Below are positions 6,075 to 25,314 of a DNA stretch of 64,000 nt, one piece after another. A model generated the notes under the pieces. It did no database searches. It was not told the DNA's origin and saw only the letters and a program-made list of their open reading frames with translations. Source of the stretch: Hyphomicrobiales bacterium (GTDB lineage: Bacteria; Pseudomonadota; Alphaproteobacteria; Rhizobiales; MH13). The DNA lies in contig JAEPOK010000001.1 in assembly GCA_017642935.1 (NCBI GenBank), positions 806,001-870,000 of the forward strand, in the 5' to 3' direction. The position numbers were made by a program, and so were the translations under genes. Position 1 is the stretch's first letter; each line of letters starts with the position of its first letter.

Positions 6075-6965
6075 TTGCTTTACGACAAACGCCATCCCGA
6101 CTTCGGTGCTGTGCTTCAACCCAATGCCGAGCTCAAGCAGTTGGCGACTGGCTTTGAGTTCGTCGAGGGACCGGCCTGGCATCCAGACGAGCAGCATCTC
6201 ACCTTCAGCGATATCGCCGGTAACAAGATGTACCGGTGGGCCTATGGAGCCGAGGCGCCAAGCGTGTTTCGCACGCCGAGCAACAAGGCCAACGGCAATA
6301 CCTATGATGCCGATGGGAGGTTGTTAACTTGCGAACACGCAACAAGCCGCGTTGTGCGGATGGAATTGGACGGCCGGGTCGATGTACTCGTCAGCCACCA
6401 TGGTGAGAAAGAACTGAACAGCCCGAACGACATCATCGTCACTCGTGACGGAACGATCTGGTTCACTGATCCGCTGCCGGGTAGGAAACCGTTTTTTGGT
6501 GTGCCACGTGACCAGGAGCTTGATTTTCAAGGTGTCTGGCGATTGCGACCCGGCGAAGAAATTGCCGAGCCCATGCTGACAGACTTCACGCTGCCTAACG
6601 GTCTCTGTACCGATCCCGACGAGAGGGTTCTTTATGTCAACGATACGTCAGCCGGCCACATCCGGCGGTTCGCGTTGGCCAGTGATGGGTCGCTGACCGG
6701 CGGCGAGGTTTTTGCGCGCTTGGAAGGCGAGGGTGAAGGTGTGCCAGATGGCATGAAGACCGATCTGGATGGCCGCGTCTGGTGCACAGGCCCTGGCGGC
6801 GTTCATGTGTTTGCCATCGATGGGACGCCACTTGGCGTGATCAGGGTACCTGAGAAGACCGCCAACTTCACCTGGATAGGACCAGAACGGAGGACGCTTG
6901 TGACGACATCATTCACATCGCTTTACACGCTACCCGTAGCGGTCACCGGCCACCATCTATTCTGA
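6075..6965 (+). CDS. SMP-30/gluconolactonase family lactonase
   Basis: The 296-residue protein is a six-bladed propeller lactonase. It has FEFVEGPAWHPD near the N-terminus, where Glu31 is the expected metal ligand, then NSPNDIIVTRDGTIWFTDP, LPNGLCTDPDERVLYVND and VPDGMKTDLDGRVWCTGPGGVHVF, covering the metal-binding Asn and Asp positions. These enzymes hydrolyse sugar-acid lactones to aldonates. The start is TTG 6075 with AAAGGG just upstream; no in-frame ATG gives the conserved N-terminus. With the aldehyde dehydrogenase downstream it suggests oxidative, non-phosphorylating breakdown of a sugar, in which a lactone is opened here. Confidence 0.88.
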   Translation: MLYDKRHPDFGAVLQPNAELKQLATGFEFVEGPAWHPDEQHLTFSDIAGNKMYRWAYGAEAPSVFRTPSNKANGNTYDADGRLLTCEHATSRVVRMELDGRVDVLVSHHGEKELNSPNDIIVTRDGTIWFTDPLPGRKPFFGVPRDQELDFQGVWRLRPGEEIAEPMLTDFTLPNGLCTDPDERVLYVNDTSAGHIRRFALASDGSLTGGEVFARLEGEGEGVPDGMKTDLDGRVWCTGPGGVHVFAIDGTPLGVIRVPEKTANFTWIGPERRTLVTTSFTSLYTLPVAVTGHHLF

Positions 6966-6995
6966 CAGCCAGCGCGCGAAGATCATTTCTTCATC

Positions 6996-7235
6996 ATGCT
7001 CTACCGGCATGGCTGCGACGCGTTCGACGGCGCTAGGCTTCCAATGCTGCACATCTTTGGGTCGCCTTCGGAACAGGGAGAGGTTGCAGACGCCATCGTT
7101 TACATGGCAAGCCCGCGTGCGAGCTACGTCACCAGCGAATGTCTGTTCCTCGATGGTGGCAGGCTGCAACTGAACTTCAACGTGCCTGTCGATGATGCGG
7201 CCCTTACACCGCACGACGATGAGAGCCGATCTTAG
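6996..7235 (+). pseudogene. Remnant of a short-chain dehydrogenase/reductase (C-terminal end only)
   Basis: About 60 residues from 7050 to the stop at 7235 match the C-terminal end of classical SDR enzymes: a GSPSEQGEVADAIVYMAS segment followed by SYVTSECLFLDGG, the conserved helix and strand that close the Rossmann fold. The cofactor-binding TGxxxGIG and the catalytic YxxxK part are absent upstream, where the SMP-30 gene ends at 6965. It is therefore a deletion remnant of a sugar dehydrogenase, which would have suited this pathway. The 79-residue frame could still be translated, but would not make a functional SDR. Confidence 0.7.
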
Positions 7236-7259
7236 ATCGCCCAACTGGAGATTTTATCA

Positions 7260-8765
7260 ATGCTACACGGCCACCATTTGATTGCGGGTTCTTGGACGGA
7301 TTCTGAAGAGACGTTTGAGAACATGCCGGTGTCGGGCGGGGCGGATCGGTTTGCGGTTGGCACGCCGGAGCTGGTGGGCCGGGCGGTTGAGGCGGCTGAG
7401 GAGGCGTTCGCGTCCTACAGTGCATTGAGCCGTGGTGAGCGGGCTGCGTTCCTGCGCACGATTGCCTTTGAGATCGACGCGCGTGGTGATGCGATTACCG
7501 CGATGGTCGTGAAGGAGACGGGCCTGCCGGAAGCCCGATTGGTGGGCGAGCGTGGCCGCACAGTCGGTCAGCTGCGGCTGTTCGCCGATCATATCGAACA
7601 GGGCGATTACCTTGATCGCCGCCATGATGAAGCGCTGCCTGATCGTCAGCCTTTGCCGCGGCCCGATCTGCGCCTGATGCAGGTGCCGACCGGCCCGGTG
7701 GCGGTGTTTGGGGCGTCGAACTTTCCGCTTGCCTTCTCTGTAGCTGGTGGGGACACGGCCTCGGCGCTGGCGGCCGGATGCCCGGTGGTGGTGAAGGGCC
7801 ATTCCGCACATCCAGGCACCGGTGAGATCGTCGCTCAGGCCATCGAGGCTGCCATCAAGGCCAGCAATCTCCATCCTGGTGTGTTCTCACTGATCCAGGG
7901 CGGCAATCGCTCGGTGGGTGAAGCACTGGTGCAGCATCCGCTCATTCGTGCTGTCGGCTTCACCGGCTCGCTAGGTGGGGGAAGGGCGCTGTTCAATCTC
8001 TGCGCGGCCCGTCCCGATCCGATCCCGTTCTTCGGTGAGCTGGGCTCGGTGAACCCGATGTTCGTACTGCCGAGCGCCATCGCAAATCGCACCGAGCAGA
8101 TCGCATCTGGCTGGGCAGGATCGCTCACCATGGGGGCAGGGCAGTTCTGCACCAATCCAGGAATTGCCATTCTGCTCGATGGTCCGGATGCCGATGCCTT
8201 CATCGCCGCCACCCGCGCCGCGTTGGAACCGCTGCAAGCGCAGACCATGCTCACCGATGGGATGGCGCAGGCCTATGTCGAGGGTCGCGACGCCATCGCC
8301 AAAGCCGATGGTGTCACCGAGATCCTCTCCAAGAGCTGCCCGGGCCGGCAGGCGAGCGCCGATCTTTATGTGGTCTCAGGGGATGATTGGCTGGCCAACC
8401 ATGCGCTGGCCGAGGAAGTGTTCGGTCCGCTGGGCCTTATTGTCCGAGCCAAGGACAGCGAGCAGATGATCGCCATCGCCACGGCGCTCAAGGGCCAACT
8501 GACCGCAACGCTGCACATGGATGATGCCGATAGCGATCTTGCCCAAGCCCTGATGCCGATCCTCACCCGCAAGGCCGGGCGTATCCTCGCCAACGGCTAC
8601 CCGACCGGCGTCGAAGTCGCTGATGCGATGGTCCATGGCGGGCCGTACCCAGCCTCGACCAATTTCGGCGCCACCTCTGTGGGCACGCTCTCCATCCGTC
8701 GGTGGCTGCGACCTATCTGCTTCCAGGCCATGCCGACGAACTTGCTGCCAAGCGATCTGAGGTAG
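7260..8765 (+). CDS. Aldehyde dehydrogenase, 2-oxoglutarate semialdehyde (2,5-dioxovalerate) type
   Basis: The 501-residue protein is an NAD(P)-dependent aldehyde dehydrogenase with the general base in FFGELGSVNP (Glu260) and the nucleophile in GAGQFCTNPG (Cys297). The opening GHHLIAGSW, the FGASNFPLAFSVAGGDTASALAAGCPVVVKGH cofactor region and the ending HGGPYPASTNFGATSVGTLSIRRWLRPICFQ are typical of 2,5-dioxovalerate dehydrogenases. These make 2-oxoglutarate in oxidative pentose and hexarate pathways. It fits downstream of a lactonase and DapA-like dehydratases. The organism-specific substrate is inferred. Confidence 0.88.
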   Translation: MLHGHHLIAGSWTDSEETFENMPVSGGADRFAVGTPELVGRAVEAAEEAFASYSALSRGERAAFLRTIAFEIDARGDAITAMVVKETGLPEARLVGERGRTVGQLRLFADHIEQGDYLDRRHDEALPDRQPLPRPDLRLMQVPTGPVAVFGASNFPLAFSVAGGDTASALAAGCPVVVKGHSAHPGTGEIVAQAIEAAIKASNLHPGVFSLIQGGNRSVGEALVQHPLIRAVGFTGSLGGGRALFNLCAARPDPIPFFGELGSVNPMFVLPSAIANRTEQIASGWAGSLTMGAGQFCTNPGIAILLDGPDADAFIAATRAALEPLQAQTMLTDGMAQAYVEGRDAIAKADGVTEILSKSCPGRQASADLYVVSGDDWLANHALAEEVFGPLGLIVRAKDSEQMIAIATALKGQLTATLHMDDADSDLAQALMPILTRKAGRILANGYPTGVEVADAMVHGGPYPASTNFGATSVGTLSIRRWLRPICFQAMPTNLLPSDLR

Positions 8766-12905: not shown

Positions 12906-13901
12906 ATGACACTGAAGAAGACCGTAACGGCTTTGGCAGCTCTATCGATTGGGTTGGCAGCGACGTCAGCGCTTGCACAGGAGCTGCGGTTCTCAACCAC
13001 CGGCAGCGGTTCTGACCCGGATGTGGTCGCGATGAACGTGTGGGAAGAGTATATCGAGGCCAATTCCGACCTTGAGGTGGAAGTGTTCGACAGCGCGTCG
13101 CTGGTCGAACAAGGGCGCCAGGGACAGGCGTTGGCGCGTGGAACCGTGGATGCCGCCTACATGTCGCCAGCTTGGTTCTCAGAAGCTGCCCCGCAATGGG
13201 AGATCTTTGCCACGCCTTATTTGCTAAGCGGCCCAGGGCATATTTGCGCGGTGCGGCAGAGCGACATCTGGGATCAGATGGTCGCGGATTTGCGCGAGTC
13301 GATGGACATCGTCGTTCTCGATGCGGCCTATCAGGGCACGCGCACGCTCAACCTTCGTGAGCAGATGGATGTGATGACGCCGGAAGATCTGGCCGGTCTT
13401 TCGCTTCGCGTTGTGCCGTCGCCGTCCAACATTTTGATGGGTGAAGGTATGGGCGCTGAGCCAACGCCGGTTCCGTTCTCTGAGCTTTACCTTGCCCTTC
13501 AGACGGGCACGGTCGATGCGCAGGAAAACCCACTGACCCTGATTTATTCGCGCCGCTTTTATGAGGTGACCGAGCAGATCGTCACGACCAACCACAAGGC
13601 GCTGATCCAATTTCCGACTTTCTCGGCACGCTCCTGGGCCAATTTGTCTGAAGAACAGCAACAAGTTGTTGCTGACGGGGCAGCTGTGGCCATGGAATCC
13701 TACTCCAACAGCGTGGTCGAACAGGAAGCCTCGCTGCGCGAAGCGCTGGAGGCCGAGGGAATCGTGTTCACCGATCCCGACCGCGATGCGTTCCGCACCG
13801 CCGTTCAGCAGCGGTTCCTGGAGAGTGAGCTTGCTGAAGCTTGGGAAGAGGGCATGTTCGAGCGGATCGCGAACCTGGAGATTCCAGCGTCCTGCCAATA
13901 G
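12906..13901 (+). CDS. TRAP transporter substrate-binding protein (DctP family)
   Basis: The 331-residue protein starts after GGGAGGAAGAC and has a signal peptide ending near ALAQ (residue 24). The mature part is a DctP-type receptor: QGQALARGTVDAAYMSP, then SLRVVPSPSN, in which the Arg normally salt-bridges the ligand carboxylate, and FSELYLALQTGTVDAQENPLTLIYSRRFYEV. The ligand is therefore probably an organic acid. It heads the rightward operon and would feed the Q/M membrane pair encoded downstream. Confidence 0.93.
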   Translation: MTLKKTVTALAALSIGLAATSALAQELRFSTTGSGSDPDVVAMNVWEEYIEANSDLEVEVFDSASLVEQGRQGQALARGTVDAAYMSPAWFSEAAPQWEIFATPYLLSGPGHICAVRQSDIWDQMVADLRESMDIVVLDAAYQGTRTLNLREQMDVMTPEDLAGLSLRVVPSPSNILMGEGMGAEPTPVPFSELYLALQTGTVDAQENPLTLIYSRRFYEVTEQIVTTNHKALIQFPTFSARSWANLSEEQQQVVADGAAVAMESYSNSVVEQEASLREALEAEGIVFTDPDRDAFRTAVQQRFLESELAEAWEEGMFERIANLEIPASCQ

Positions 13902-13949
13902 GCTGGGTTTAGACCCAGCTCGACCGGCGCCGTTGTTGACGGCGCCGGT
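13902..13949 (+). terminator. Tandem hairpins after the TRAP binding-protein gene
   Basis: Directly after the stop are two stem-loops: GCTGGGT/ACCCAGC (13902-13919, loop TTAG) and the perfect 11-base stem ACCGGCGCCGT/ACGGCGCCGGT (13923-13949, loop TGTTG). Only TT follows the second stem, so complete termination is unlikely. Such hairpins commonly stabilise the binding-protein message and lower expression of the membrane genes downstream. Confidence 0.6.
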
Positions 13950-14018
13950 TTCCCGCACGCGCCTCTCCCCTCGGCCCGTGGTTTGTTCCTATGGCAATTG
14001 CATTGAAAGACCTGCCTC

Positions 14019-14579
14019 GTGTCGCTGGACTCTGATGATCAAGATCGCAACAAGACTGGTCGCGTTCCAAGTGCGGGGTCTGAGCGAACCGGTCGCGTGG
14101 CGCACGTCCATCGGGTTTTTGTGCGGGTGGCAACAGCTCTTTCGGCGGCGATGTTCGCCGCGCTTTTCCTTACTTTCGTCGCCCAAATTGTCTGGCGCTA
14201 CGTCCTCAACAATCCTTTGGTGTGGACGTTGGAGGTGGCGGGCCTGTTGTTCGTGACGGTCAGCCTCTTCACAGCCGCGACGCAAATGCGGTTTCGTGAC
14301 CATGTCGCGCTCGATCTGTTGGTCGAAGCCGTGCCAAATGGCCTCGGTCGGCTCCTTCGAGCCCTTTCGTTGATCATCTTCGGCGTGGTCATGCTCTTAT
14401 CGGTGCCTGACACGGTACGCGTCCTTGAGTGGATGTATGGCGAGCGCACATTCGCGTTGCGATTGAACCTCGGCCACCTGTTCGTGCTGATGATCGCGTT
14501 CGTTGTTATCTATGCCCTGCGCGCGTTCTGGGAGGCGTGGGGGCATCTGCGGGGCATCAAAGGGCGCGACGCCCCATGA
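14019..14579 (+). CDS. TRAP transporter small permease (DctQ family)
   Basis: The product is up to 186 residues with four hydrophobic segments, the usual DctQ topology. It includes FVAQIVWRYVLNNPLVWTLEVAGLLFV, a DctQ hallmark, and FRDHVALDLLVEAVP. The start is uncertain: GTG 14019 opens the frame, but the first 25 residues are polar and a later start is possible. Its stop overlaps the start of the large permease gene (ATGATG at 14576-14581), indicating coupling. The protein forms the small subunit of the sodium- or proton-driven importer. Confidence 0.85.
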   Translation: MSLDSDDQDRNKTGRVPSAGSERTGRVAHVHRVFVRVATALSAAMFAALFLTFVAQIVWRYVLNNPLVWTLEVAGLLFVTVSLFTAATQMRFRDHVALDLLVEAVPNGLGRLLRALSLIIFGVVMLLSVPDTVRVLEWMYGERTFALRLNLGHLFVLMIAFVVIYALRAFWEAWGHLRGIKGRDAP

Positions 14580-15865
14580 TGCTCGATCCTCTGCATTGGG
14601 CCGCGCTGTTCTTTGGCCTTCAGATCGTACTGGGCTTGCCTGTGGGCATGGTGCTGATCTCCACCGTGGTCGTGTGGGCACTGGCTGCGGGCGCAGACAC
14701 CAGCGTGATGGCTGAACGGGTCATCTTCGCCTCGGTCGAAAACATCATCGTTATCGCTATCCCGCTGTTCATCTTCACCGCCAAGGTGATGGATCATGGT
14801 GGTATTTCAAAACGGTTGCTCGACTTCTGTCTGGCTTTGGTGGGACACCGACCGGGTGGTCTGGCGCAGGTCAACATCGTCTCCTCGATCATCTTTTCCG
14901 GCATGAGTGGCGATGCCACGTCCGATGCGTCGGGCATCGGCCAGGTACTGATCAAGATGATGCGTGAGGAGGGGCGCTACCCGCCGGCCTATGCGGCTGC
15001 GGTGACGGTGGCATCGTCGTCGATCGGGCCGATCATTCCGCCGTCCATTCCGATGCTGGTCTATGCCTTCTTTGCCGAGGTCTCGATTGGCGCTTTGTTT
15101 TTGGCTGGCATCATTCCCGGGCTCATTATGGGGCTGGCGATGATGGTGCTCGTTGCTGTCCAATCCCGTCGCCGTGGCTTTCCGGTTGAGCCGCGCCTGA
15201 CGAGTGCTGCCATGCTGGCGGCAACGCTTGCCGCTATTGGCCCGTTGCTCATGCCGGTCATCCTTCTTGGCGGCATCTACTCAGGCGTGTTTACGCCGAC
15301 AGAGGCAGCGGCGGCGGCTGGCTCCTATGCCGTTCTCCTATCGGTTTTTCTTTATCGCCAATCGTCCTGGGGTGCTCTTTACAGCGCCCTGGTTGAAAGC
15401 GCGCGTCAGTCCGGCATGGTGTTCCTGCTGATCGGCGGCGGATTCGCACTGAACTACGTGTTCACCGTGGAGCGGGTTACCGACCAGATCACGGACTTCA
15501 TCCTGGCGCTTGAGATCACGCAGCTGCAGCTTTTGTTCGTGGTGCATGGCGCCTTCATTGTCATGGGCATGTTCTTGACCAAAGCACCGATGATGTACGT
15601 GGTCGTGCCGGCCTTGCTGCCAGGATTGGCCGCCGCCGGCATCGATCTGGTCCATTTCGGCGTGCTGATCGTCCTCAACATGATGATCTCGATGATCACG
15701 CCGCCAATGGGCCTGATGGTTTTCATTGTTGGTGGGTTGGCGAAGATTCCGATCGGGCCGATTTTTCGTGAAAGCGTGCCCTTTATGATCACACTCTACG
15801 TCGTCATGATCCTGATCACGGTGTTCCCGCAATTTGTGCTCTGGCTTCCGGGCATGGCGGGGTAG
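14576..15865 (+). CDS. TRAP transporter large permease (DctM family)
   Basis: About 429 residues with some twelve or more membrane segments. The family signatures are present: ISKRLLDFCLALVGHRPGGLAQVNIVSSIIFSGMSGDATSDASGIGQVLIKMM, then SSSIGPIIPPSIPMLVYA and FTPTEAAAAAGSYA. Two overlapping ATG codons (14576, 14579) could start it; the frame is open further upstream, but there it only mirrors the DctQ gene. This is the transport channel of the tripartite carrier whose receptor is DctP above. The sulfatase gene follows after five bases. Confidence 0.92.
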   Translation: MMLDPLHWAALFFGLQIVLGLPVGMVLISTVVVWALAAGADTSVMAERVIFASVENIIVIAIPLFIFTAKVMDHGGISKRLLDFCLALVGHRPGGLAQVNIVSSIIFSGMSGDATSDASGIGQVLIKMMREEGRYPPAYAAAVTVASSSIGPIIPPSIPMLVYAFFAEVSIGALFLAGIIPGLIMGLAMMVLVAVQSRRRGFPVEPRLTSAAMLAATLAAIGPLLMPVILLGGIYSGVFTPTEAAAAAGSYAVLLSVFLYRQSSWGALYSALVESARQSGMVFLLIGGGFALNYVFTVERVTDQITDFILALEITQLQLLFVVHGAFIVMGMFLTKAPMMYVVVPALLPGLAAAGIDLVHFGVLIVLNMMISMITPPMGLMVFIVGGLAKIPIGPIFRESVPFMITLYVVMILITVFPQFVLWLPGMAG

Positions 15866-15870
15866 GTAAG

Positions 15871-17322
15871 ATGGCAATCCGCAACGTTCTGTTGATTGGC
15901 GTGGACCAAATGCGCAGCGATGTCGCTGGTCCAGGGAAGACGGTCCCGGCGGTGACGCCTGCGCTGGATAAGCTCTACGCGCAAAGCGCGAATTTCGCCC
16001 GTGCCTATGCGTCCTGTCCGCTTTGTTCGCCGGCCCGAGCTTCGATGTTCACCGGCGACTACGCCTTCCGCCACGGGATGGGCACCAATTGCGACATGTA
16101 TCATAGCTTGGCGACGGAACTGCCCGATCCGTCACGCTTGCTGCACCGCGTTTTCCAAGATGCCGGGTATCGGACGGGGTTTGTCGGCAAATGGCATGTC
16201 GGCACAACCAAAGGTCCGGCCAGCTTTGGCTTTGAGGGAATGGATCTGGCTGGCTATGGCAATGTCGCCATGTCGCCGGAATTCTTGTCCTACTTGGCGG
16301 ACAACGCTCTTTCTTATTCGGTGGAGCCGACTGTTTTTCTCAATCCCGATCGACAAACCATGCTGGCCGGCAATTGGAACGGGCCTGCAGCCTCAACCCC
16401 ATCCTATTACTTGACCGAACGGACCATCGATCTGCTGTCCGGCTACGCGGACGCCGACGCTCCGTTCTTTGCCACCGTTCAATATTGGGATCCCCACCAA
16501 CCTCATCTCGTGGCCGATGAATTTCGCGGGATCACAGACCGAGCCGCGATCTCGGCTTGGCCGAATTTCGCTGATGATCTCAACGGCAAGCCAAGGCGCG
16601 TTGGCCGCGAGCGGGATGACTTCTATCGATTGCACACTCGATCCGAAGACGAGCTAATCGCCTATATCGGGCACTATTGCGATCATATGGCGATGTTGGA
16701 CGCGCAGATCGGTCGGCTTCTGAGCTGGCTCGATGATAGCGGTCTCGCGGATGAAACGTTGGTTGTGTTCACCTCCGATCATGGCGACATGACCGGCGCC
16801 CATGGCGGCCTGATCGACAAAGGGCTGCTCTACGAAGAAGCGATCAAAATCCCGCTTCTCTTTCGTCATCGAAGCCTCGCGCCCGGCGAGCGTAATCAAC
16901 TCGCCATGAACATGGACATTCTGCCGACGGCGCTCGATTTACTCGACCTCGATTTACCACCTAGGCACGGGATGAGCCTTGCGCCGCAGCTCGAGGATCC
17001 AGAGGTGAGTGGACGCAACCAGATGCTGGTCGAATATCACGGGCTGCGCTTCCTTTATTCGCAGCGCGCTTTGCTTTTTCAGGATGGCTGGAAGTTCATC
17101 TTCACGCCCGGCGATGATGATGAACTGTATAATCTCAACAGCGATCCGGGCGAGATGAACAATCTGGCTGGCGACGCCGCAACAGCCGATGTTCTCGCAA
17201 GGTGCAGGGATAGCATGATTGCCGCGACGGCACGTTTGGACGATCCATTGCGAGACTGTGTGGCCAAGTTCAACGGGCATTGGAACACGGGTTCTGGCCA
17301 ATTTGATGCGACCCGGCTGTGA
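15871..17322 (+). CDS. Second sulfatase (type I, formylglycine-dependent)
   Basis: The 483-residue protein starts RNVLLIGVDQMRSD and has CSPAR at residues 52-56, so Cys52 is the predicted formylglycine. VGKWHVGTTKG and LVVFTSDHGDMTGAHGGLIDKG provide the remaining active-site and metal positions. It is only distantly similar to the sulfatase at 8808-10208, so the two probably act on different positions or substrates. No signal peptide is evident, so desulfation would follow import by the TRAP system encoded immediately upstream. Confidence 0.92.
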   Translation: MAIRNVLLIGVDQMRSDVAGPGKTVPAVTPALDKLYAQSANFARAYASCPLCSPARASMFTGDYAFRHGMGTNCDMYHSLATELPDPSRLLHRVFQDAGYRTGFVGKWHVGTTKGPASFGFEGMDLAGYGNVAMSPEFLSYLADNALSYSVEPTVFLNPDRQTMLAGNWNGPAASTPSYYLTERTIDLLSGYADADAPFFATVQYWDPHQPHLVADEFRGITDRAAISAWPNFADDLNGKPRRVGRERDDFYRLHTRSEDELIAYIGHYCDHMAMLDAQIGRLLSWLDDSGLADETLVVFTSDHGDMTGAHGGLIDKGLLYEEAIKIPLLFRHRSLAPGERNQLAMNMDILPTALDLLDLDLPPRHGMSLAPQLEDPEVSGRNQMLVEYHGLRFLYSQRALLFQDGWKFIFTPGDDDELYNLNSDPGEMNNLAGDAATADVLARCRDSMIAATARLDDPLRDCVAKFNGHWNTGSGQFDATRL

Positions 17323-17461: not shown

Positions 17462-18121
17462 ATGGCGAAAAAACCGATCTTCATTTCTCCCGACGCAGAG
17501 GACAACACTGGAGCCAATAAGGAAGGCAGCGATCCAGCGCCAACGCGGCTCTATCGCGACCCTGCCGAGACGACGCCACCCGACTTGCCGTCCCGTGTGG
17601 GCGATGCCACGCGCATTATTGCCTCAGAGCCGGCGAGCCCGGCTGGCGCAGGTGATCGGGTTGGTGATGCCACGCGTTTGGTTGAAACGGTTCCACCAGC
17701 ACCAGAGGTGACGCGTGTTTTGGCCGTAGAGCCCGCACCGGAAGCCAATGAACCCCTGGAATACGCCCAGCCTGCGAACCCAGTCGTTGGTTGGCTCGTT
17801 GTCGTCGATGGGCCGGGGCGTGGAAAAGACCTGTCTTTTGCCGTCGGCATGAACGCCATCGGTCGCGGTGGTGACAATGACGTGGTTGTCGATTTCGGCG
17901 ACGCCGAGATTGTGAGCAATGCACACGCCTACATCGTCTATGACGAAGAGGGGCGGTCTTATCATGCAACACATGCCGGGCAGAACAGCGTTGTGCGACT
18001 CAACGATGAACCCCTCCTGGAGGCCAAGGAAGTGCAAAGCGGCGACCAACTGCGTCTGGGAAGAACCACGTTGCGTTTGGTGACGCTGTGCGGTCCCGAT
18101 TTTGACTGGTCGGGCGACTGA
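17462..18121 (+). CDS. FHA domain protein with a Thr-Arg motif repeat linker
   Basis: The 219-residue protein starts at ATG 17462. Residues 1-105 are an acidic, proline-rich, probably disordered region with four Thr-Arg-hydrophobic motifs (Thr28, Thr50, Thr71, Thr84; two within repeated GDATR words). Residues about 110-210 form an FHA domain: GRGGDN 134-139, S152xxH155 and a QNSVVRLN loop in place of the usual S-x-N-G segment. FHA domains bind phosphothreonine. The gene heads a tight cluster with PP2C and other FHA genes (11-base gap), so it is probably a kinase substrate and adaptor in that circuit. Confidence 0.85.
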   Translation: MAKKPIFISPDAEDNTGANKEGSDPAPTRLYRDPAETTPPDLPSRVGDATRIIASEPASPAGAGDRVGDATRLVETVPPAPEVTRVLAVEPAPEANEPLEYAQPANPVVGWLVVVDGPGRGKDLSFAVGMNAIGRGGDNDVVVDFGDAEIVSNAHAYIVYDEEGRSYHATHAGQNSVVRLNDEPLLEAKEVQSGDQLRLGRTTLRLVTLCGPDFDWSGD

Positions 18122-18132
18122 GCACCGCGACC

Positions 18133-19206
18133 GTGACGGCCATCCCCACCGAGTTCGACGTTGCCAGCGCCATTTGGAAGGGCATGCGCCCCTACCAAGA
18201 GGACAGTCTGTCGACTGATTTTCATGCCGGTTCACCGAACGGCTTTGCCATTGTCGCCGATGGTATGGGTGGTCACGCAGCCGGTGATGTGGCGTCGAAC
18301 TTGGCGACCATTCACGGGTCCGGCGAACTGAAACTTGCCATGCAGCAGCTTGAAGGCAAGGCCGATGGCCTGCCCGAGGCATTGGGTGCTGCCATTGAAA
18401 AGGCCAATGGCGCGATTGCCGAGCGGGTTGGCGCTGACAGCCGGGTTGCCGGTATGGGCACCACTCTGTTGGCGCTCGCAATCAACGAGAACAAACTGTT
18501 TTGGGGCTCAGTTGGCGACAGCCCTTTGTATTTGGTCCGCGACGGCACCCTACGTCAGTTGAACCAGGACCACTCGATGGCACCGGTGATTGCCGCCATG
18601 GTGGAACGCGGCGAGATCACGCCTGATCAGGCCAAGCAGCACCCGGATCGCAATGCGCTGACGTCTGTTTTGATGGGCGAGCGGATCGAGAAACAAGACG
18701 TGCCGGAAACAGCGTTTGAGGTCATGCCGAAAGATGTGCTGATCGCAGCAAGTGACGGTCTGCAATTCCTGCCCGAAGAGCGAGTTTTGGAGCTGGTGAC
18801 GGCCGCGCTGCCGGCGTCCAGTTCAACGCTTTGCGATAAACTGATGGGCGCATTGAAGGAACTCGACGATCCGCACCAGGATAATTGCGCGATCGTAGTC
18901 GTTCAGATGCGCGCTGAAGCGGCAGAGGAGGCTGATGTTGTTGCAGATGAACCTGCTCCACCGGCTCGCGCCGACATTTCCCAAACGCGGATCGTGCCCG
19001 ATCAGCCAGACGCCGAAGCTCAGTCCGATGATGCCGTCCCACTGGTGCAGGATGCACACGAAACAGTGACGGAAGAACCACCGCAACCGGCGCCTGAACG
19101 CAAAGCGCCGTCAGAGTCCGCTGGCAGTTCGGTGATGAATTCCGGCGTCCTATTTTTGGTTGTCGGTCTTGCCGCCGTAGCGGCAGTCGCCTTGCTTCTT
19201 CGCTAA
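18133..19206 (+). CDS. PP2C-family Ser/Thr phosphatase with C-terminal membrane anchor
   Basis: The 357-residue protein begins at GTG 18133. The PP2C catalytic domain (residues about 8-255) has Asp24 in YQEDS, VADGMGGHAAGD with Asp43, GTTLLAL, SVGDSPLYL, S207-D208-G209 and D250-N251, so all metal-binding acids are present and the enzyme should be active. A proline- and acid-rich linker (260-330) includes Thr285-Arg-Ile-Val-Pro. The chain ends in one hydrophobic helix (about 333-356), predicting a tail-anchored inner-membrane phosphatase facing the cytoplasm. It would oppose the kinase encoded at 23599-25314. Confidence 0.93.
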   Translation: MTAIPTEFDVASAIWKGMRPYQEDSLSTDFHAGSPNGFAIVADGMGGHAAGDVASNLATIHGSGELKLAMQQLEGKADGLPEALGAAIEKANGAIAERVGADSRVAGMGTTLLALAINENKLFWGSVGDSPLYLVRDGTLRQLNQDHSMAPVIAAMVERGEITPDQAKQHPDRNALTSVLMGERIEKQDVPETAFEVMPKDVLIAASDGLQFLPEERVLELVTAALPASSSTLCDKLMGALKELDDPHQDNCAIVVVQMRAEAAEEADVVADEPAPPARADISQTRIVPDQPDAEAQSDDAVPLVQDAHETVTEEPPQPAPERKAPSESAGSSVMNSGVLFLVVGLAAVAAVALLLR

Positions 19207-19290
19207 CTTTGATAGGCGCGGGAACTTGGCTTTGAAGAAACAATTTGCATAGGTGTCGCTGTCGGGGCGGCGAATTGCTGGGGGAGCAGA

Positions 19291-20166
19291 ATGGGCAAGG
19301 CGCAAATATCGATATGGCAGGCCGCTTCCGGCGCGGTTTTGCTTTCCGCCTTGGAAATGCGATTGCCGGTTGTTCTCGGCCGACATGGGCCGAGCGACGC
19401 AGGCCGGCTGACCGATGCCGACGGCAAGGAAGTGTTGTTTGGCGCCGGGCTTGCAACACTATCGCGACATCACATGGACATCACCGTTTCTGACACCGGC
19501 GGCGCCTGCGTCATTGACCGCTCGAGCAACGGCGTTCAGCGCAAGATGCCTGGCGAACCCAACAGCCTGCTCGGTAAAGACGGCGTGGACAAATTACCGG
19601 TGGGCAGCCAGCGGCAATATGAGACGGTTGGGTTGGTCATCGAGATCAATCTGCCACATGCCTCGCGGCCATTGGAAGCCGGCGCCACCGGCGAGAAGAT
19701 CTATGCCGTCTATGACAGCGCCAGCGCCGGTCGACCCAAGGCGATTGATCTGACGGACGGTTATCTCTGTCTTATTCGCGATGCCAGTTCCGTGCGTATG
19801 GAACGACAGCCAGGGGCGTCGGCGGCAGAGGTTTTGCAGGGCGTGAAGGAAGCCCGCCAAGTCTGTCTGGCTGTGATCGGCGGCGATGATGACGGGCGGA
19901 CCATCGTCATACCGGGGCAAAACAGAAGCGTGATCTGCAACCGCCGATCGCTGCCGGAAAACACGCCCTTTGCCTTGGCGCACATGGACACGCTTGAAGT
20001 AGGCGGGATGGATTTGCGCATCATGGAGGAGGGCGGCGAGCAGCCGATTGTGTGCGTCAATCCCGATTGCCGGCAGATGAACGCCTACGAGGTCGGCGGC
20101 AACTGCCGCTATTGCGGCACCCGCCTCGGCGATGGCCGCACCCAGAAATTGCCGCTCGGAGCCTGA
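19291..20166 (+). CDS. Degenerate FHA-like protein with C-terminal zinc ribbon
   Basis: The 291-residue protein has an FHA-like N-terminal part: GRHG at 30-33, S58RHH61 and DRSSNGV at 76-82, close to the canonical GR, SRxH and S-x-N-G motifs. The middle (about 130-245) is unrecognised and may be a second FHA-like fold. The end carries four cysteines, 255, 260, 272 and 275 (CX4C-X11-CX2C), a zinc ribbon. The last residues, T284-Q-K-L-P, match the motif repeated in the other proteins of the cluster. It ends two bases before the next FHA gene. A scaffold or sensor role is inferred. Confidence 0.75.
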   Translation: MGKAQISIWQAASGAVLLSALEMRLPVVLGRHGPSDAGRLTDADGKEVLFGAGLATLSRHHMDITVSDTGGACVIDRSSNGVQRKMPGEPNSLLGKDGVDKLPVGSQRQYETVGLVIEINLPHASRPLEAGATGEKIYAVYDSASAGRPKAIDLTDGYLCLIRDASSVRMERQPGASAAEVLQGVKEARQVCLAVIGGDDDGRTIVIPGQNRSVICNRRSLPENTPFALAHMDTLEVGGMDLRIMEEGGEQPIVCVNPDCRQMNAYEVGGNCRYCGTRLGDGRTQKLPLGA

Positions 20167-20168
20167 CG

Positions 20169-22166
20169 ATGCTGACCTATCCCATTTTCTTTCAGGTCCA
20201 ACAAATCTCCGATCTCGGTCAGCCGATCGGCGAGGCCAGAACGCTCAAATGCGAAAGCCCAGGCGAGTTCACGGTCGGCAAGTCGAAAGACTGCGATGTC
20301 CAGTTGGATGGAGCATCGGTTTCGCGCCAGCATCTGGTTCTCATCCTTGGTGAAGATGATGTGCGCGTGCGCGATGAGGACAGCACCAATGGAACGTTCC
20401 TGAACGGAACGCGCGTCGCCGATGCCGACGTGGTTCCTGGCGATCAGATTGAACTGCCGGGATGGCATCTCATTTTGATGGGAGCCGAAAGCGCCCAGGC
20501 TGACCAGACGCCGAAGAGCGATGCCGTTGTTTTGAGCCGGCTGATCACCGGTGATTCAGGCGAGGTGGCCGTCCCGCCGCCAATCGATCCTTACACAGAG
20601 CTTTTTGGCGGCAAGGATGAGGTCGATGTCGAGGCGTTGGCCGCAAGCGGGTTTCCGATCAGCGAGGTGAAATTCTGCGCCGTTGGCGGCGGTCTTGGAT
20701 CGTTTGTTTGGGTCGATCATCTGCGCTGCTACGGCGTTCCAACCGACGACATCGCCGTCGTTGGCACCGAACGCAAATGCTATGAGACCTACAAGCGGTA
20801 CTGCAAAAACAGCCAGATCCCCGACCATGAACGGTTGCGTTCGAACTCGCTCTCGCGACCGGACAATATCTGGGGATTCCCAGGTTACGCCTTGCGTGAG
20901 GTGTTCAAGGGGCAAGCGTCCGGCATCAAGGGCGTTTTCAAGGTCTTCGGTGAGCCGGCGCTTGCTGAAAGCTACACACCGCGCGCCGGCGATGTCTTCG
21001 ACTCCCTGGATCGTGAAGCCAAACGCATCCAATGGGACGCGATGTATCGGCAAGGCCAGGTTCGCCGACTAAGAAAAACCAGCGATGGACGCTATTGCGT
21101 TGCCTATCAGCCTCGCGGTGAGGCGGCGGATGCCGGGCGTCCCAAGATGGCGCTGATCATCGCCGATGTCGTGCATCTGTCGACTGGTTATCCCGCGACG
21201 CGGTTTGTCGATGATTTCCAGGAATTTGTTGCCAACCACCCGGACAAGCGGCCTTTGGTTGCCAACGCCTATGAACCCCACGATCAGATCTACCGCACGA
21301 TCGAACAACGCCAGGAGCCAATTTTCGTTGTTGTGCGTGGGCGCGGTATTGTCGCCAGCCGTATCCTGCAGCGGCTCAGCGAGGCGCGTGCCAAGAACCC
21401 ACAAATCAAGATCATCCAATCCATGCGAAGCGCTCTGGGCGCACGTGACGGCGCGACTTATGGTCGGGCCAAGCGTGCGGTGATCAACAATGTTGAAATT
21501 CAGCCGTTCAATTGGCCGAAAGCGGCCTGGGGCGGCGATCTTCGGTTCGAGTATGAGAAAGCCGACGAGGCGCGCCGTGGTGAGATTCTCTCAACGCTGG
21601 GCGGAACATCCACGGCGCTGCGCTCTGATTGGGTGGCAATCGCCGAGCGCGGCACCGAAGAAGACTGGTATCGCGTTGTCTTTGGATCGATCAAAGAGCT
21701 TGATCCGGTGGAAGGCGCCGAAGACCGGATCCGGGTGTTGATCGAAACACCGGAAAAGCATCGCGAAGAACTCTTCGCTCACTACCTGATCGATTGCACC
21801 GGCTTAATCGCCGACATTCGCCGCTCGCCTTTCATGGCCGATCTTCTCGATACCTACGATCTGCCACGTAATCACGCCTATTCCGTACGTGGCGGTAAGG
21901 CTGAAAAGCGCGGACCGACAGGTTTGCAAGTCACCAATGATTTTGAGATCGGCGGATTGAAAAACGGCAAGGGCAGGGCCTATGCGGCTGGCACGATCAC
22001 CACGGGCGGCCCCTATCTTGCGGTCGATAGTTTTCTAGGCCTGCAATATTCCGCGCTGCGATCAGTCGACCACCTAGTCACTGAGAAGACGCACAAAGTC
22101 CGCGATCTGACACCTCTGCGCTCGATGACCCAATGGCTCAAATGGGCCGTCGGTAGCGCACCTTAG
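20169..22166 (+). CDS. FHA domain fused to a flavoprotein-like oxidoreductase domain
   Basis: From ATG 20169 the product is 665 residues; the frame is open upstream, but that part is another frame of the preceding gene. Residues 1-105 form a full FHA domain (G37, S52-R-x-H55, S72TNGT76). After a linker, residues about 165-665 look like a two-nucleotide-fold oxidoreductase: G173GGLGS178 in a strand-turn-helix, a second VVVRGRG fold near 387-393, D542CTG545, and a C-terminal ITTGGPYLAVDSFLGLQYSA segment like the FAD-closing region of N-hydroxylating or HI0933-like flavoproteins. A redox enzyme controlled by phosphothreonine binding is inferred. Catalytic identity is unknown. Confidence 0.7.
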   Translation: MLTYPIFFQVQQISDLGQPIGEARTLKCESPGEFTVGKSKDCDVQLDGASVSRQHLVLILGEDDVRVRDEDSTNGTFLNGTRVADADVVPGDQIELPGWHLILMGAESAQADQTPKSDAVVLSRLITGDSGEVAVPPPIDPYTELFGGKDEVDVEALAASGFPISEVKFCAVGGGLGSFVWVDHLRCYGVPTDDIAVVGTERKCYETYKRYCKNSQIPDHERLRSNSLSRPDNIWGFPGYALREVFKGQASGIKGVFKVFGEPALAESYTPRAGDVFDSLDREAKRIQWDAMYRQGQVRRLRKTSDGRYCVAYQPRGEAADAGRPKMALIIADVVHLSTGYPATRFVDDFQEFVANHPDKRPLVANAYEPHDQIYRTIEQRQEPIFVVVRGRGIVASRILQRLSEARAKNPQIKIIQSMRSALGARDGATYGRAKRAVINNVEIQPFNWPKAAWGGDLRFEYEKADEARRGEILSTLGGTSTALRSDWVAIAERGTEEDWYRVVFGSIKELDPVEGAEDRIRVLIETPEKHREELFAHYLIDCTGLIADIRRSPFMADLLDTYDLPRNHAYSVRGGKAEKRGPTGLQVTNDFEIGGLKNGKGRAYAAGTITTGGPYLAVDSFLGLQYSALRSVDHLVTEKTHKVRDLTPLRSMTQWLKWAVGSAP

Positions 22167-22179
22167 GGAGGCCAAGAGC

Positions 22180-22638
22180 ATGATTCCCACACTTGCTGGC
22201 CGCATTCAGACCCGGCTTTTTCTGTTTGTTTTTCTTGGACTTCCAATCACCGCGCTTTTTGCCTACGCGCACAATGGCTGGGCCTGGGACTGGGGTCAGG
22301 CGCAGATCTTCTTCTTGTTTCTGACCACGCTTCTTGGCGTCGGGCTGATCCTGGACTCGGTCTACATCTTCATCCAATCAGTGCGTTGGGACCGCGATTG
22401 GCCGTTCGCTTTTCAGTTCTTCTTTTCCATCATCGAGTTCGGCATCGTCGTCGGCCTGATGTTCAGCGATCTGATCCCTTGGCTGCCGATGGCGGGTGGA
22501 AAGGGGGCGATAGAGCTGCAGACTGTCACACTGCACTTTGCGAGCGTGTTCATCCCGTCTTTCCTGGCCCTTTTGGGTCCCCTGTCGGTGTTTTTCATCC
22601 GGTGGCGGTTCAAGGCCGGTCAGTTCGGGAAGCTCTAG
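22180..22638 (+). CDS. Four-helix integral membrane protein of unknown function
   Basis: The 152-residue protein has four strongly hydrophobic segments (about 13-30, 42-65, 78-98 and 118-140) separated by short polar loops with few charges. Start ATG 22180 follows GGGAGGCCAAGAGC. It is 13 bases after the FHA-oxidoreductase gene and 3 bases before the TSUP gene, so it is almost certainly co-transcribed with both. No family is recognised. It could be a membrane partner of the oxidoreductase or the exporter. Confidence 0.75.
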   Translation: MIPTLAGRIQTRLFLFVFLGLPITALFAYAHNGWAWDWGQAQIFFLFLTTLLGVGLILDSVYIFIQSVRWDRDWPFAFQFFFSIIEFGIVVGLMFSDLIPWLPMAGGKGAIELQTVTLHFASVFIPSFLALLGPLSVFFIRWRFKAGQFGKL

Positions 22639-22641
22639 GTC

Positions 22642-23580
22642 GTGAGCCGACTGGTCAAAACCTGGATACCCATTCACCTGGCGCTACTGGCGGCCGCCTA
22701 CGCGCTGTTGTTTTGGCAGTCCTCTCTCACCCTTGATGTCCTGCTCGGCCTTTGGTTCTTCGTGCCTGTCGGCGTGATGGGTGCGATCATCGCCAATGCG
22801 ACCGGTACGGGTGGCGGCGTGGTGTTTGTGCCAGTCTTTGCTGCGTTGCAAGACGGCGGCATTATGGTGCCAGACGCGCTGCTCAGCCTGTTGCCGCAAA
22901 ACGCCAATGAGGGCGTCGCCGTTTCTTTCACCATCCAATGCTTTGGCATGTCGATAGGGGCGTTGACTTGGGCCCATGCCATCTTCGTCAAAGACAGTCT
23001 GGCGTGGGATGAAAAGATTGCGCCGCACACGCTGCTTGCGCTGGCCGCAACACCACTGGCGACTGGCATTCCAGCACTTCTTCTCACCCAGGCCTTCATT
23101 GAGATCGATGGCGCTCAATTGATTGTTTGGTTTAAGTTTTTCTCGCTGGCACTGGGCATAATTCTACTGATTTTCACCTGGGTACAGCGCCATCAATCCG
23201 CTTTAGAACGTAAGCTGACCATCGGACCGGGCGAGCTGTGGGTATTGCTCCTGCTCGGTGCATTGGGCGGGGCGGTCACGGCCTTATTCTCGGTCGGCAT
23301 TGGCGAGTTTTTGGCGATCTATCTCATCCTGCGGCGCTTTCCGACAAAGGTTGCGATTGCGGTGGCCGTTTGGGTCTCGGTGATTTGCGTGTTCACCGGC
23401 TTTTGGGACAATTATTTTGCTGGTCTGGTTCGCCTGGAGATTGCACTGATTGCTGTGCCTGGTGCCATTCTCGGCGGCTTCCTCGCCAAGGGCATTGCTT
23501 CGCTGCTTGGATCGCTGTGGCTGAAAACGGCGGCATCCATATGGATTATCGCGTCAAGCGTCTACCTGCTCGTGACGTAG
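22642..23580 (+). CDS. TSUP (TauE/SafE) family anion exporter
   Basis: The 312-residue protein starts at GTG 22642 and has about eight membrane segments. It has the duplicated TSUP pattern of glycine-rich helices: GAIIANATGTGGGVVFVPVF in the first half and LGALGGAVTALFSVGIGEFLAIYLIL in the second. Characterised TauE/SafE members move sulfite, sulfoacetate or related organosulfur anions. Co-transcription with FHA and PP2C genes is unusual. The two sulfatases a few kilobases away make a sulfur-oxyanion role tempting, but that is inference. Confidence 0.87.
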   Translation: MSRLVKTWIPIHLALLAAAYALLFWQSSLTLDVLLGLWFFVPVGVMGAIIANATGTGGGVVFVPVFAALQDGGIMVPDALLSLLPQNANEGVAVSFTIQCFGMSIGALTWAHAIFVKDSLAWDEKIAPHTLLALAATPLATGIPALLLTQAFIEIDGAQLIVWFKFFSLALGIILLIFTWVQRHQSALERKLTIGPGELWVLLLLGALGGAVTALFSVGIGEFLAIYLILRRFPTKVAIAVAVWVSVICVFTGFWDNYFAGLVRLEIALIAVPGAILGGFLAKGIASLLGSLWLKTAASIWIIASSVYLLVT

Positions 23581-23598
23581 CGTTCGATGCGTTTCGCC

Positions 23599-25314
23599 TC
23601 AAATTCCCTGGAGCTCAAGAGTCGCTTCACAGGTTACGCCCTGGTCAAAGGTGCCTAGCCAAACATCCAACCGTCCGCCTTCGGTGCCATTGAAGGCCTC
23701 GATGTTGGGGATCATCAAGCGTGGTTGCAGCTGGCCGTTGGAGTCATCATCAAAATACCAAATCGTTGTCGGCGTGTTGACGAGCAGCGTGGTGTCGCAG
23801 CTTGCGGTCACCGAAAACTGCAGCCAGCCCGTTTCCGTTGACATCTCCGAGAGGAGCAGCGAAATGCTCGGCGCTTCGGAAACATAGCCGCGACCGGTCG
23901 TGTTGGGACAACTGGCGAGTGGCGCGCCGCCCCCAGCGTTGAGGCGATAGGTTGGTCTATTGGTTTGCAGAAAATTGCCGGTGAGCCCAACCGTGCGGGC
24001 AGCTCTGGCATCGAAGTCCGGGCACCCGACCGGCACTGCGCCACTGCCGTTGCCGGCGGCAGCTAGGTCAGCCAGCGCCTGATCGCGCTCCTGTTCGACC
24101 CTCGACACGTCACTGCGTGTTGCATCGAGATCGGTCTGCAGGGCCTCCACCGATTGGGTGAGCTCAGTGATTGTACCGTTTGCGGTATCCAATTGGTTCT
24201 GCAGAGCGCTGGCGTCGTCCGCGCTCATGCCACCAGCGGTTAAGGCGATGTAGGCTCCGGCGGCGACAGCTATGCCGCCACCGCCAGCCAGAACGCCACG
24301 CAGAAACTTGCCGGAACTGTCAGGGGAAGTCGATGACGCAGCTACTGGAGCGCTTGTTGCAAGCTCGGGCGGCAAAGCCCGCGTGACGGCGGCATCGAGC
24401 TTTTCTAGCCAGGTTTTGGCCGATTGTGGCCGCTCTTTCTGGGAAATCGCCAGCGAACGATCGATGAGCGAGAGAAGCACTTGGTTATGGTCGGCAAACC
24501 GACCTGACAGCGCCTCATAAGGATCCGGCTCTGCTGTCGCAACGCTTTGGATGCGCACGTCGGCGGCGGGCGGCGCCTCGCTTGCGATGGCGTGATACAA
24601 GGTTGCCCCGAGCGAATAGAGATCGCTGGCCGGGCTTTGCTCGGCACCCGTCGTGTAGAACTCGCTGGGCGAATATCCATCGGAGACAACGCGAAACGTC
24701 CCCATCTTGCGTGTTTCGGCGCGGATTTGCTGCCGGGCGGCGCCAAAATCGATCAGGATCGGTCGATCAAATCTGTCGATGCGAATATTGGACGGCTTGA
24801 TGTCGCGGTGCAGTAGCCCGCTCTCATGCAGATAGGCGAGGGCATCCAGAATGCTCCGCGCCATTTCTACGACGGCGGCTGGCGTCAAGCTCTCGGCATC
24901 GGAGTTGATGACGGTCTGCAGATCATGGCCGTGGATGAAGTCCATCGCCATGTAGGCGGTGCCGTTTTCTTCAAACAGGGTTTGAACATGCACCACATTG
25001 GGATGGGAAAGGCCGGCGAGGAGCCGCGCTTCGCGCAAAAACAGATTGCGTGCTGTGCTAAATGAGGCCGCAGTCGACTCGCTGGCGGCACTAACCGAGC
25101 GGCTGGACGAGCGCGCCACAAGGCCAAGCGGGAAGCACTCTTTGAGCGCGACATCGCGATCGAGATTGTCCTTGGCTAGATAGGTTATCCCAAAACCGCC
25201 GGCGGCGATGTTGCGAATGATCTTGTATTGTCCGCCATTTAGCTCAGCCCCGACCGGTAACTCGCCCGGCGGGCCATCCGGCAAGGGACGCGTCAGTTGA
25301 TCGTCGTCTGCCAT
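23599..25314 (-). CDS. Transmembrane eukaryote-like Ser/Thr protein kinase
   Basis: The 571-residue protein has a kinase domain at about 28-300: glycine loop AAGGFG (37-42), Lys58 in VALKE, H169RDIKPSN176 and D189FG191, so it should be active. Thr8-Arg and Thr311-Arg motifs flank the domain. A glycine-rich membrane helix lies at about 338-361, then a predicted coiled coil (368-420) and a cysteine-containing periplasmic domain (about 430-571) of unrecognised fold. The gene is convergent with the TSUP gene (18 bases apart) and lies at the edge of the FHA/PP2C cluster, so it is the likely kinase of that circuit, sensing a periplasmic cue. Confidence 0.92.
   Translation of the reverse strand: MADDDQLTRPLPDGPPGELPVGAELNGGQYKIIRNIAAGGFGITYLAKDNLDRDVALKECFPLGLVARSSSRSVSAASESTAASFSTARNLFLREARLLAGLSHPNVVHVQTLFEENGTAYMAMDFIHGHDLQTVINSDAESLTPAAVVEMARSILDALAYLHESGLLHRDIKPSNIRIDRFDRPILIDFGAARQQIRAETRKMGTFRVVSDGYSPSEFYTTGAEQSPASDLYSLGATLYHAIASEAPPAADVRIQSVATAEPDPYEALSGRFADHNQVLLSLIDRSLAISQKERPQSAKTWLEKLDAAVTRALPPELATSAPVAASSTSPDSSGKFLRGVLAGGGGIAVAAGAYIALTAGGMSADDASALQNQLDTANGTITELTQSVEALQTDLDATRSDVSRVEQERDQALADLAAAGNGSGAVPVGCPDFDARAARTVGLTGNFLQTNRPTYRLNAGGGAPLASCPNTTGRGYVSEAPSISLLLSEMSTETGWLQFSVTASCDTTLLVNTPTTIWYFDDDSNGQLQPRLMIPNIEAFNGTEGGRLDVWLGTFDQGVTCEATLELQGI

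Follow-up and report, generated by a model that had tools for sequence, protein, structure and literature searches.

In a window of 64,000 nucleotides from a Hyphomicrobiales bacterium (contig JAEPOK010000001.1, positions 806,001 to 870,000), seven intact genes at window positions 17462-25314 make up a module that is conserved and, as far as we have searched, undescribed. Its core consists of a flavoprotein with a fused FHA domain (FHA-OX), a four-helix membrane protein (TM152) and an FHA protein with a zinc ribbon (FHA291), and this cassette is common to five phyla, whole or in part. A kinase and a PP2C phosphatase form a variable shell around it, and the TSUP exporter was seen only in alphaproteobacterial versions of the module. 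We read the whole as a phosphorylation-controlled membrane redox module in which FHA-OX, acting as a monooxygenase, would work with TM152 under the control of an FHA/phosphothreonine switch, and give this reading a probability of about 0.55. The module itself and the fold of its enzyme are well supported.

Co-occurrence of the core cassette across phyla

A genome scan with FHA-OX gave matches in Cyanobacteria, Chloroflexota, Rhodothermaceae and Actinomycetota. Profile searches recovered the enzyme from 47 of 292 cyanobacteria, from 5 of 246 actinobacteria, at full length from 3 of 251 Chloroflexota, and from a single genome among the 198 sampled for the phylum of Rhodothermaceae; in every count the genome at the centre of the sample is included. 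When a TM152 profile was run on the same 292 cyanobacteria, 46 genomes gave a strong match, and all of these were among the 47 with FHA-OX; a single marginal match (E 8.6e-4) lay outside them. The naive hypergeometric P for this near-perfect co-occurrence is 4e-53, a value that ignores shared ancestry. Furthermore, three cyanobacterial genomes with two copies of FHA-OX also carry two of TM152. Most loci have TM152 next to FHA-OX. The two genes are not neighbours in 8 of the 43 genomes checked, such that physical linkage alone is insufficient to account for the match. Since the pair occurs together in at least five phyla, this suggests a widespread phosphorylation-controlled redox system.

The third core member, FHA291 (19291-20166, forward strand), has an FHA region followed by a C-terminal CxxxxC...CxxC zinc ribbon, which gives it the look of an adaptor. 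Orthologues, likewise with the zinc ribbon, are found in alphaproteobacteria, Cyanobacteria, Chloroflexota and Rhodothermota; the gene lies upstream of FHA-OX, and it stands beside the enzyme in four phyla. In the Rhodothermaceae locus (L009), for instance, the gene order is PP2C, FHA-zinc-ribbon protein, an enzyme with two FHA domains (FHA-FHA-OX) and TM152. In the enzyme tree, the alphaproteobacterial (100/100), actinobacterial (100/100) and cyanobacterial (99/94) sequences each form a single clade, which fits an old spread with later loss or transfer within phyla. A recent import from cyanobacteria or Chloroflexota was rejected, because the alphaproteobacterial enzymes are one clade.

Some loci depart from the usual arrangement. 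In one cyanobacterium, a protein that by its appearance resembles a CPA2-type antiporter is encoded between the FHA-zinc-ribbon and TM152 genes (L086:11868-13130). A Chloroflexota homologue of TM152 carries a long extra C-terminal segment with a zinc ribbon at its end (L106:8039-8866), and no separate FHA-zinc-ribbon gene was seen at that locus.

Among alphaproteobacteria, the class-wide sample of 385 genomes contained full-length FHA-OX in the window's own genome only, to which a family search added a sister genus (G001). The order-wide sample of 297 genomes yielded six more, in the families f200, f187 and f175, and rarity of the enzyme in this class was therefore dropped as a sampling effect. 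The rpoB of the window's genome is about 79% identical to that of Sinorhizobium, which fits an alphaproteobacterium. Across the eight alphaproteobacterial loci counted, the window included, FHA291, FHA-OX and TM152 are each present in 8/8, the further FHA protein FHA1 in 6/8, TSUP and the kinase in 5/8 each. The sister-genus locus (L125) holds the kinase, FHA291, FHA-OX, TM152 and TSUP, along with the start of a protein resembling a von Willebrand factor A (vWA) protein at the contig end. A secreted protein of about 510-580 residues with a vWA domain, a transmembrane segment and an FHA domain (vWA-TM-FHA) is encoded at L152, L154, L155 and L157 and in part at L125 (5/8). It is a further member of the module and is missing from the window, where Pfam finds no vWA domain in any of the seven proteins. 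L157 combines PP2C, a PAN-domain kinase, FHA1, vWA-FHA, TM152, FHA-OX and FHA291, and L153 consists of the three-gene cassette by itself. At L156, a transporter of the Na+/H+ exchanger type with a C-terminal FHA domain adjoins the cassette (6499-8163).

These counts bear on what had been predicted from the window alone. The original prediction took the seven genes for one functional unit and named their recurrence in related genomes as its own test; the set does recur, in six genomes from three other families of the order, and the congeners G003 and G004 lack it. It also described the unit as a module of kinase, phosphatase and FHA proteins. All three are present, but the heart is the cassette of FHA-OX, TM152 and the FHA-zinc-ribbon protein.

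The predicted flavoenzyme and its putative membrane partner

FHA-OX (20169-22166, forward strand) carries an FHA domain at residues 35-96 (Pfam, E 8e-17), fused to a predicted FAD/NADPH flavoprotein at residues 163-648. This catalytic part is matched by no family in Pfam or NCBIfam, and a sequence search against solved structures gave nothing significant. The original prediction had called for profile searches and structure prediction of this protein, of FHA291 and of TM152. The final AlphaFold model, built on 38 sequences, reached a predicted local distance difference test score (pLDDT) of 82 and a predicted template modelling score (pTM) of 0.77, while an earlier model from 13 sequences had a pLDDT of 73. 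It matched the N-hydroxylating monooxygenases PvdA, SidA, DesB and DfoA with Z 22-24.6 over 387-405 residues, so that a flavin-dependent N-hydroxylating-monooxygenase fold (Z about 24) is well supported as a prediction. Residues 108-138, 226-228 and 261-268 are poorly modelled, and since these include a linker and part of a conserved motif region, the active site is beyond the model's resolution. Within the family, a GxG (173-175; G173/G175) and a DxTG (542-545; D542-T544-G545) motif are invariant, RGxGIVAS (RGRGIVAS, residues 390-397) is nearly so, and there is no invariant cysteine.

Compared with the known N-hydroxylating monooxygenases, FHA-OX thus shares a predicted fold over some 387-405 residues, the FAD/NADPH motifs and the DxTG signature of the ATG type. 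It differs from them in that identity is 9-14%, that it falls outside PF13434, that an FHA domain is fused to it and that a membrane partner co-occurs with it. Flavoproteins of 430-450 residues that are distantly related to the catalytic part, lack the FHA domain and are hardly covered by Pfam exist in Chloroflexota and actinobacteria (L116:5615-6952, L117:8800-10077, L082:727-2076 and L084:733-2070); a 445-residue Chloroflexota relative scores 21.4 bits against PF13434, where the cut-off is 21.3. Some copies of the enzyme itself seem to have decayed. In Hormoscilla GM7CHS1pb the gene is split over several frames and seemingly broken (L018:8932-10548), and in Calothrix one copy is split (L017) and a second is intact (L043).

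TM152 (22180-22638, forward strand), the conserved partner of FHA-OX, has four predicted helices and matches no Pfam or NCBIfam family. In an alignment of 16 rows, G7, R8, R12, G20, G55, Y62, W70, D71, D73, W74, P75, E86, W142 and R143 are invariant. Conservation peaks at an N-terminal TPTLxGRWQTR, a WDxDWP loop joining helices 2 and 3, and a C-terminal RWRFxGG, three stretches that, with four helices, would come to lie on one side. This conserved face would most simply be cytoplasmic and may serve as a docking surface for FHA-OX. In one cyanobacterium with a second, intact FHA-OX, TM152 is fused in frame to a C-terminally truncated enzyme (L121:8679-10886); this may be a copy in decay or a fusion that arose naturally.

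Signalling genes and the proposed switch

The remaining genes of the window fit around this pair. All seven open reading frames of the original prediction are present and intact, and six of them, FHA1, PP2C, FHA291, FHA-OX, TM152 and TSUP, are read rightward and separated by 11, 84, 2, 13 and 3 bases; the spacing of 2-13 bases that had been noted for the last four is thereby corroborated. The kinase gene (23599-25314, reverse strand) lies 18 bases downstream of TSUP (22642-23580, forward strand) and is convergent with the run, hence it does not share an operon with the six rightward genes. The kinase, of Hanks Ser/Thr type (Pkinase, E 1.4e-32), has a single transmembrane helix (340-358), a C-terminal extracytoplasmic domain and intact GGFG, ALK, HRD and DFG residues. 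Its presumed counterpart, the Stp1/IreP-like Ser/Thr phosphatase PP2C (18133-19206, forward strand; PP2C_2, E 7e-11), has a single helix too, as a C-terminal membrane anchor, and retains the QED, DGMGGH, GDS, SDG and DN residues that include its metal-ligand motifs. Both proteins had been described correctly as membrane-bound, and the same holds for the four-helix protein and for the TauE/SafE family of TSUP, an anion exporter by family (PF01925, E 9e-14, 52.2 bits against a curated cut-off of 32.6). Of the three FHA or FHA-like proteins proposed, FHA1 (17462-18121, forward strand; E 2.9e-7) and FHA-OX exceed the Pfam cut-off, and FHA291 falls just short of it (18.6 bits against 20.7) and keeps the signature residues GRH, SRHH and SSNG. 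Our analysis adds the zinc ribbon of FHA291, the fold of FHA-OX and a repeat in FHA1.

This repeat is the short motif TR[ILV], of which the linker preceding the FHA domain of FHA1 holds four copies. The expectation is 0.09, and none of 20,000 shuffles contained as many. FHA1 orthologues have an N-terminal TRIV/TRVV motif, and all five examined retain one or two copies of TR[ILV] (e.g., NEPTRIVQRPG). Judged by sequence, these motifs would be the foremost candidates for sites that the kinase phosphorylates and the FHA domains recognise.

Put together, the following mechanism can be proposed. The transmembrane kinase would phosphorylate threonines, probably those that lie in the TR[ILV] motifs of the FHA1 linker, and PP2C, held by its membrane anchor, would strip the phosphates off again. 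The FHA domains of FHA-OX and of the adaptor FHA291 would bind phosphothreonine, whereby the enzyme could be recruited, released or switched. FHA-OX, as a FAD/NADPH-dependent flavoenzyme and most likely an N-hydroxylating or class B monooxygenase, would work with TM152, which may anchor it or deliver to it an electron acceptor or substrate that is soluble in the membrane. The alphaproteobacterial extras, TSUP and often vWA-TM-FHA, might export an oxidised anion or sense outside conditions. As the original prediction supposed, the kinase might sense the periplasm and the circuit might control anion export.

Several observations weigh against this scheme, and the first of them concern the reaction. 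The oxidoreductase sequence of FHA-OX fits no monooxygenase family (against PF13434 there is no match at E <= 1), and the bacillithiol disulfide reductase YpdA matches the model equally well, with Z 24.7 over 319 residues. FHA-OX might therefore be an NADPH-dependent reductase like YpdA or ferredoxin-NADP reductase (FNR), one that hands electrons to a disulfide or to the membrane pool, TM152 being its quinone or acceptor partner. This is the most serious of the alternatives and a plausible minority view, since ferredoxin-NADP reductases are also among the top VIA-align matches and the co-occurring membrane partner would suit it. However, the N-hydroxylating monooxygenases align over a greater length than YpdA. 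The reductase is further disfavoured by the lack of an invariant cysteine in the family and of a conserved pair of haem histidines in TM152 (H119 is conserved in just 85%); for the latter reason TM152 was also rejected as a haem cytochrome b. Other flavoproteins that bind two dinucleotides (thioredoxin reductase, FNR and lipoamide dehydrogenase) rank lower in the Foldseek and VIA lists. Because of the fold matches, the conserved motifs and the missing cysteine, we prefer a FAD/NADPH enzyme that is likelier a monooxygenase than a reductase.

The other observations concern the signalling genes. The actinobacterial homologues of FHA-OX lack the fused FHA domain, only 7 of the 31 cyanobacterial loci have a kinase near the cassette, and PP2C is found at only 2 of the 8 alphaproteobacterial ones (the window and L157). 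Phosphorylation control may thus run via distant genes or be optional. It would be a further step to regard FHA-zinc-ribbon protein, FHA-OX and TM152 as the whole functional unit, with kinase, PP2C, FHA1 and TSUP as independent neighbours. The bare cassette of L153 would agree with this, as would the kinase and PP2C counts just given, but we consider it rather unlikely. Within three genes of FHA-OX, kinase genes are over-represented (18/281, compared with 7/443 at greater distance; P 6.5e-4 across phyla), also in actinobacteria alone (P 0.015), where a soluble kinase adjoins the enzyme and, at L109, a separate FHA protein is found as well. PP2C accompanies the FHA-zinc-ribbon gene in Rhodothermaceae, and in the alphaproteobacteria FHA1, TSUP and the kinase recur at the frequencies given above in differing families and gene orders.

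A bolder form of the phosphorylation-controlled redox reading is that FHA-OX and TM152 constitute a two-protein redox machine that crosses phyla, with an obligate membrane partner, an FHA-zinc-ribbon adaptor of its own and a new reaction, and that it is served by whichever Hanks kinase a lineage provides. Such an undescribed phosphothreonine-gated membrane oxidation is a tentative proposal, to which we give somewhat less than even odds.

Comparison with known systems

A further alternative would be that the genes form a kinase-phosphatase module for defence against phages, and the kinase domain does match the PD-T4-6 and MAD6 profiles of PADLOC, with a distribution that is patchy within the genus. 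Yet the PADLOC matches listed are mainly on this domain and the other module proteins have none, the enzyme tree follows the phyla, and no defence gene is among the flanking genes scanned, such that we find a defence role improbable.

For type VI secretion systems (T6SS), a threonine phosphorylation pathway has been described in which a transmembrane Hanks kinase, a PP2C and an FHA protein are encoded together and a phosphothreonine-FHA switch operates (PMC3953482, PMC5995506). The module has the same three components, but no sheath gene accompanies them and the FHA domain is fused to a flavoenzyme. As the original prediction had held, this is not a T6SS locus: no VipB/TssC gene was found in the whole genome (98.8% complete) by a search for which an E. 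coli genome served as positive control, and against the TagH-type FHA model (TIGR03354) FHA-OX scores 20 bits with a cut-off of 120 and FHA1 and FHA291 have no match. A degraded locus, i.e., a PpkA-PppA-Fha pathway left behind by the loss of tss genes, was rejected as highly improbable, for although a kinase with helix and outer domain, PP2C and FHA are all there, the module genes are intact and the core cassette is also found in Cyanobacteria, Chloroflexota and Actinomycetota. In its logic the module resembles the T6SS pathway, with a flavoenzyme in the place that the secretion machine holds there. We know of no counterpart to the zinc-ribbon adaptor, TM152 or TSUP in that pathway.

Control of metabolic or transport activity by Hanks kinases and FHA proteins is known from OdhI/GarA, which act on 2-oxoglutarate dehydrogenase, and from the ABC transporter Rv1747. 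Here the enzyme is of another class, the FHA domain is fused to it, and an adaptor and a membrane partner are added. The TerY-P triad (vWA, kinase, PP2C) and the KKP kinase-phosphatase module (PMC11341870) share kinase and PP2C with our module. The likeness to TerY-P extends to the vWA protein added in alphaproteobacterial relatives; in these, however, the vWA domain is part of the secreted vWA-TM-FHA protein, which the window lacks. To our knowledge, neither system has a flavoenzyme or a partner like TM152. The claim that the block is not a described system has stood up, as neither such a combination of FHA, kinase, PP2C and flavoprotein nor the FHA-OX/TM152 pair was found in the open-access literature searched.

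Few enzyme outputs of Hanks-kinase signalling are known in bacteria. FHA-OX carries its own phosphothreonine reader, and together with TM152 it occurs in five phyla and in about one sixth of the cyanobacterial species sampled. Since kinase, phosphatase and adaptor are encoded in one compact cassette with the enzyme and its partner, the pathway's output lends itself to direct testing, and a context is gained for two conserved families outside Pfam, the catalytic part of FHA-OX and TM152.

The surroundings of the module offer some further observations. A TRAP transporter (DctP, DctQ, DctM) followed by a sulfatase occupies window positions 12906-17322 and is kept in congeners. None of the congeners G002-G004 has the FHA-OX enzyme, and in G003 and G004 homology is kept through transporter and sulfatase up to 17313-17317 and ends there, which places the module in a variable region with the end of the sulfatase as its left border. 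In alphaproteobacterial kinases adjacent to the module, PAN domains and Sel1/TPR repeats follow the kinase domain (L157:2861-6571, L152:16380-19499), which is uncommon as an output or sensor architecture. Elsewhere in the genome from which the window comes, Pfam finds just one more FHA domain, and there it is joined to an apparent adenylate/guanylate cyclase in a single protein (L003:1375-2436).

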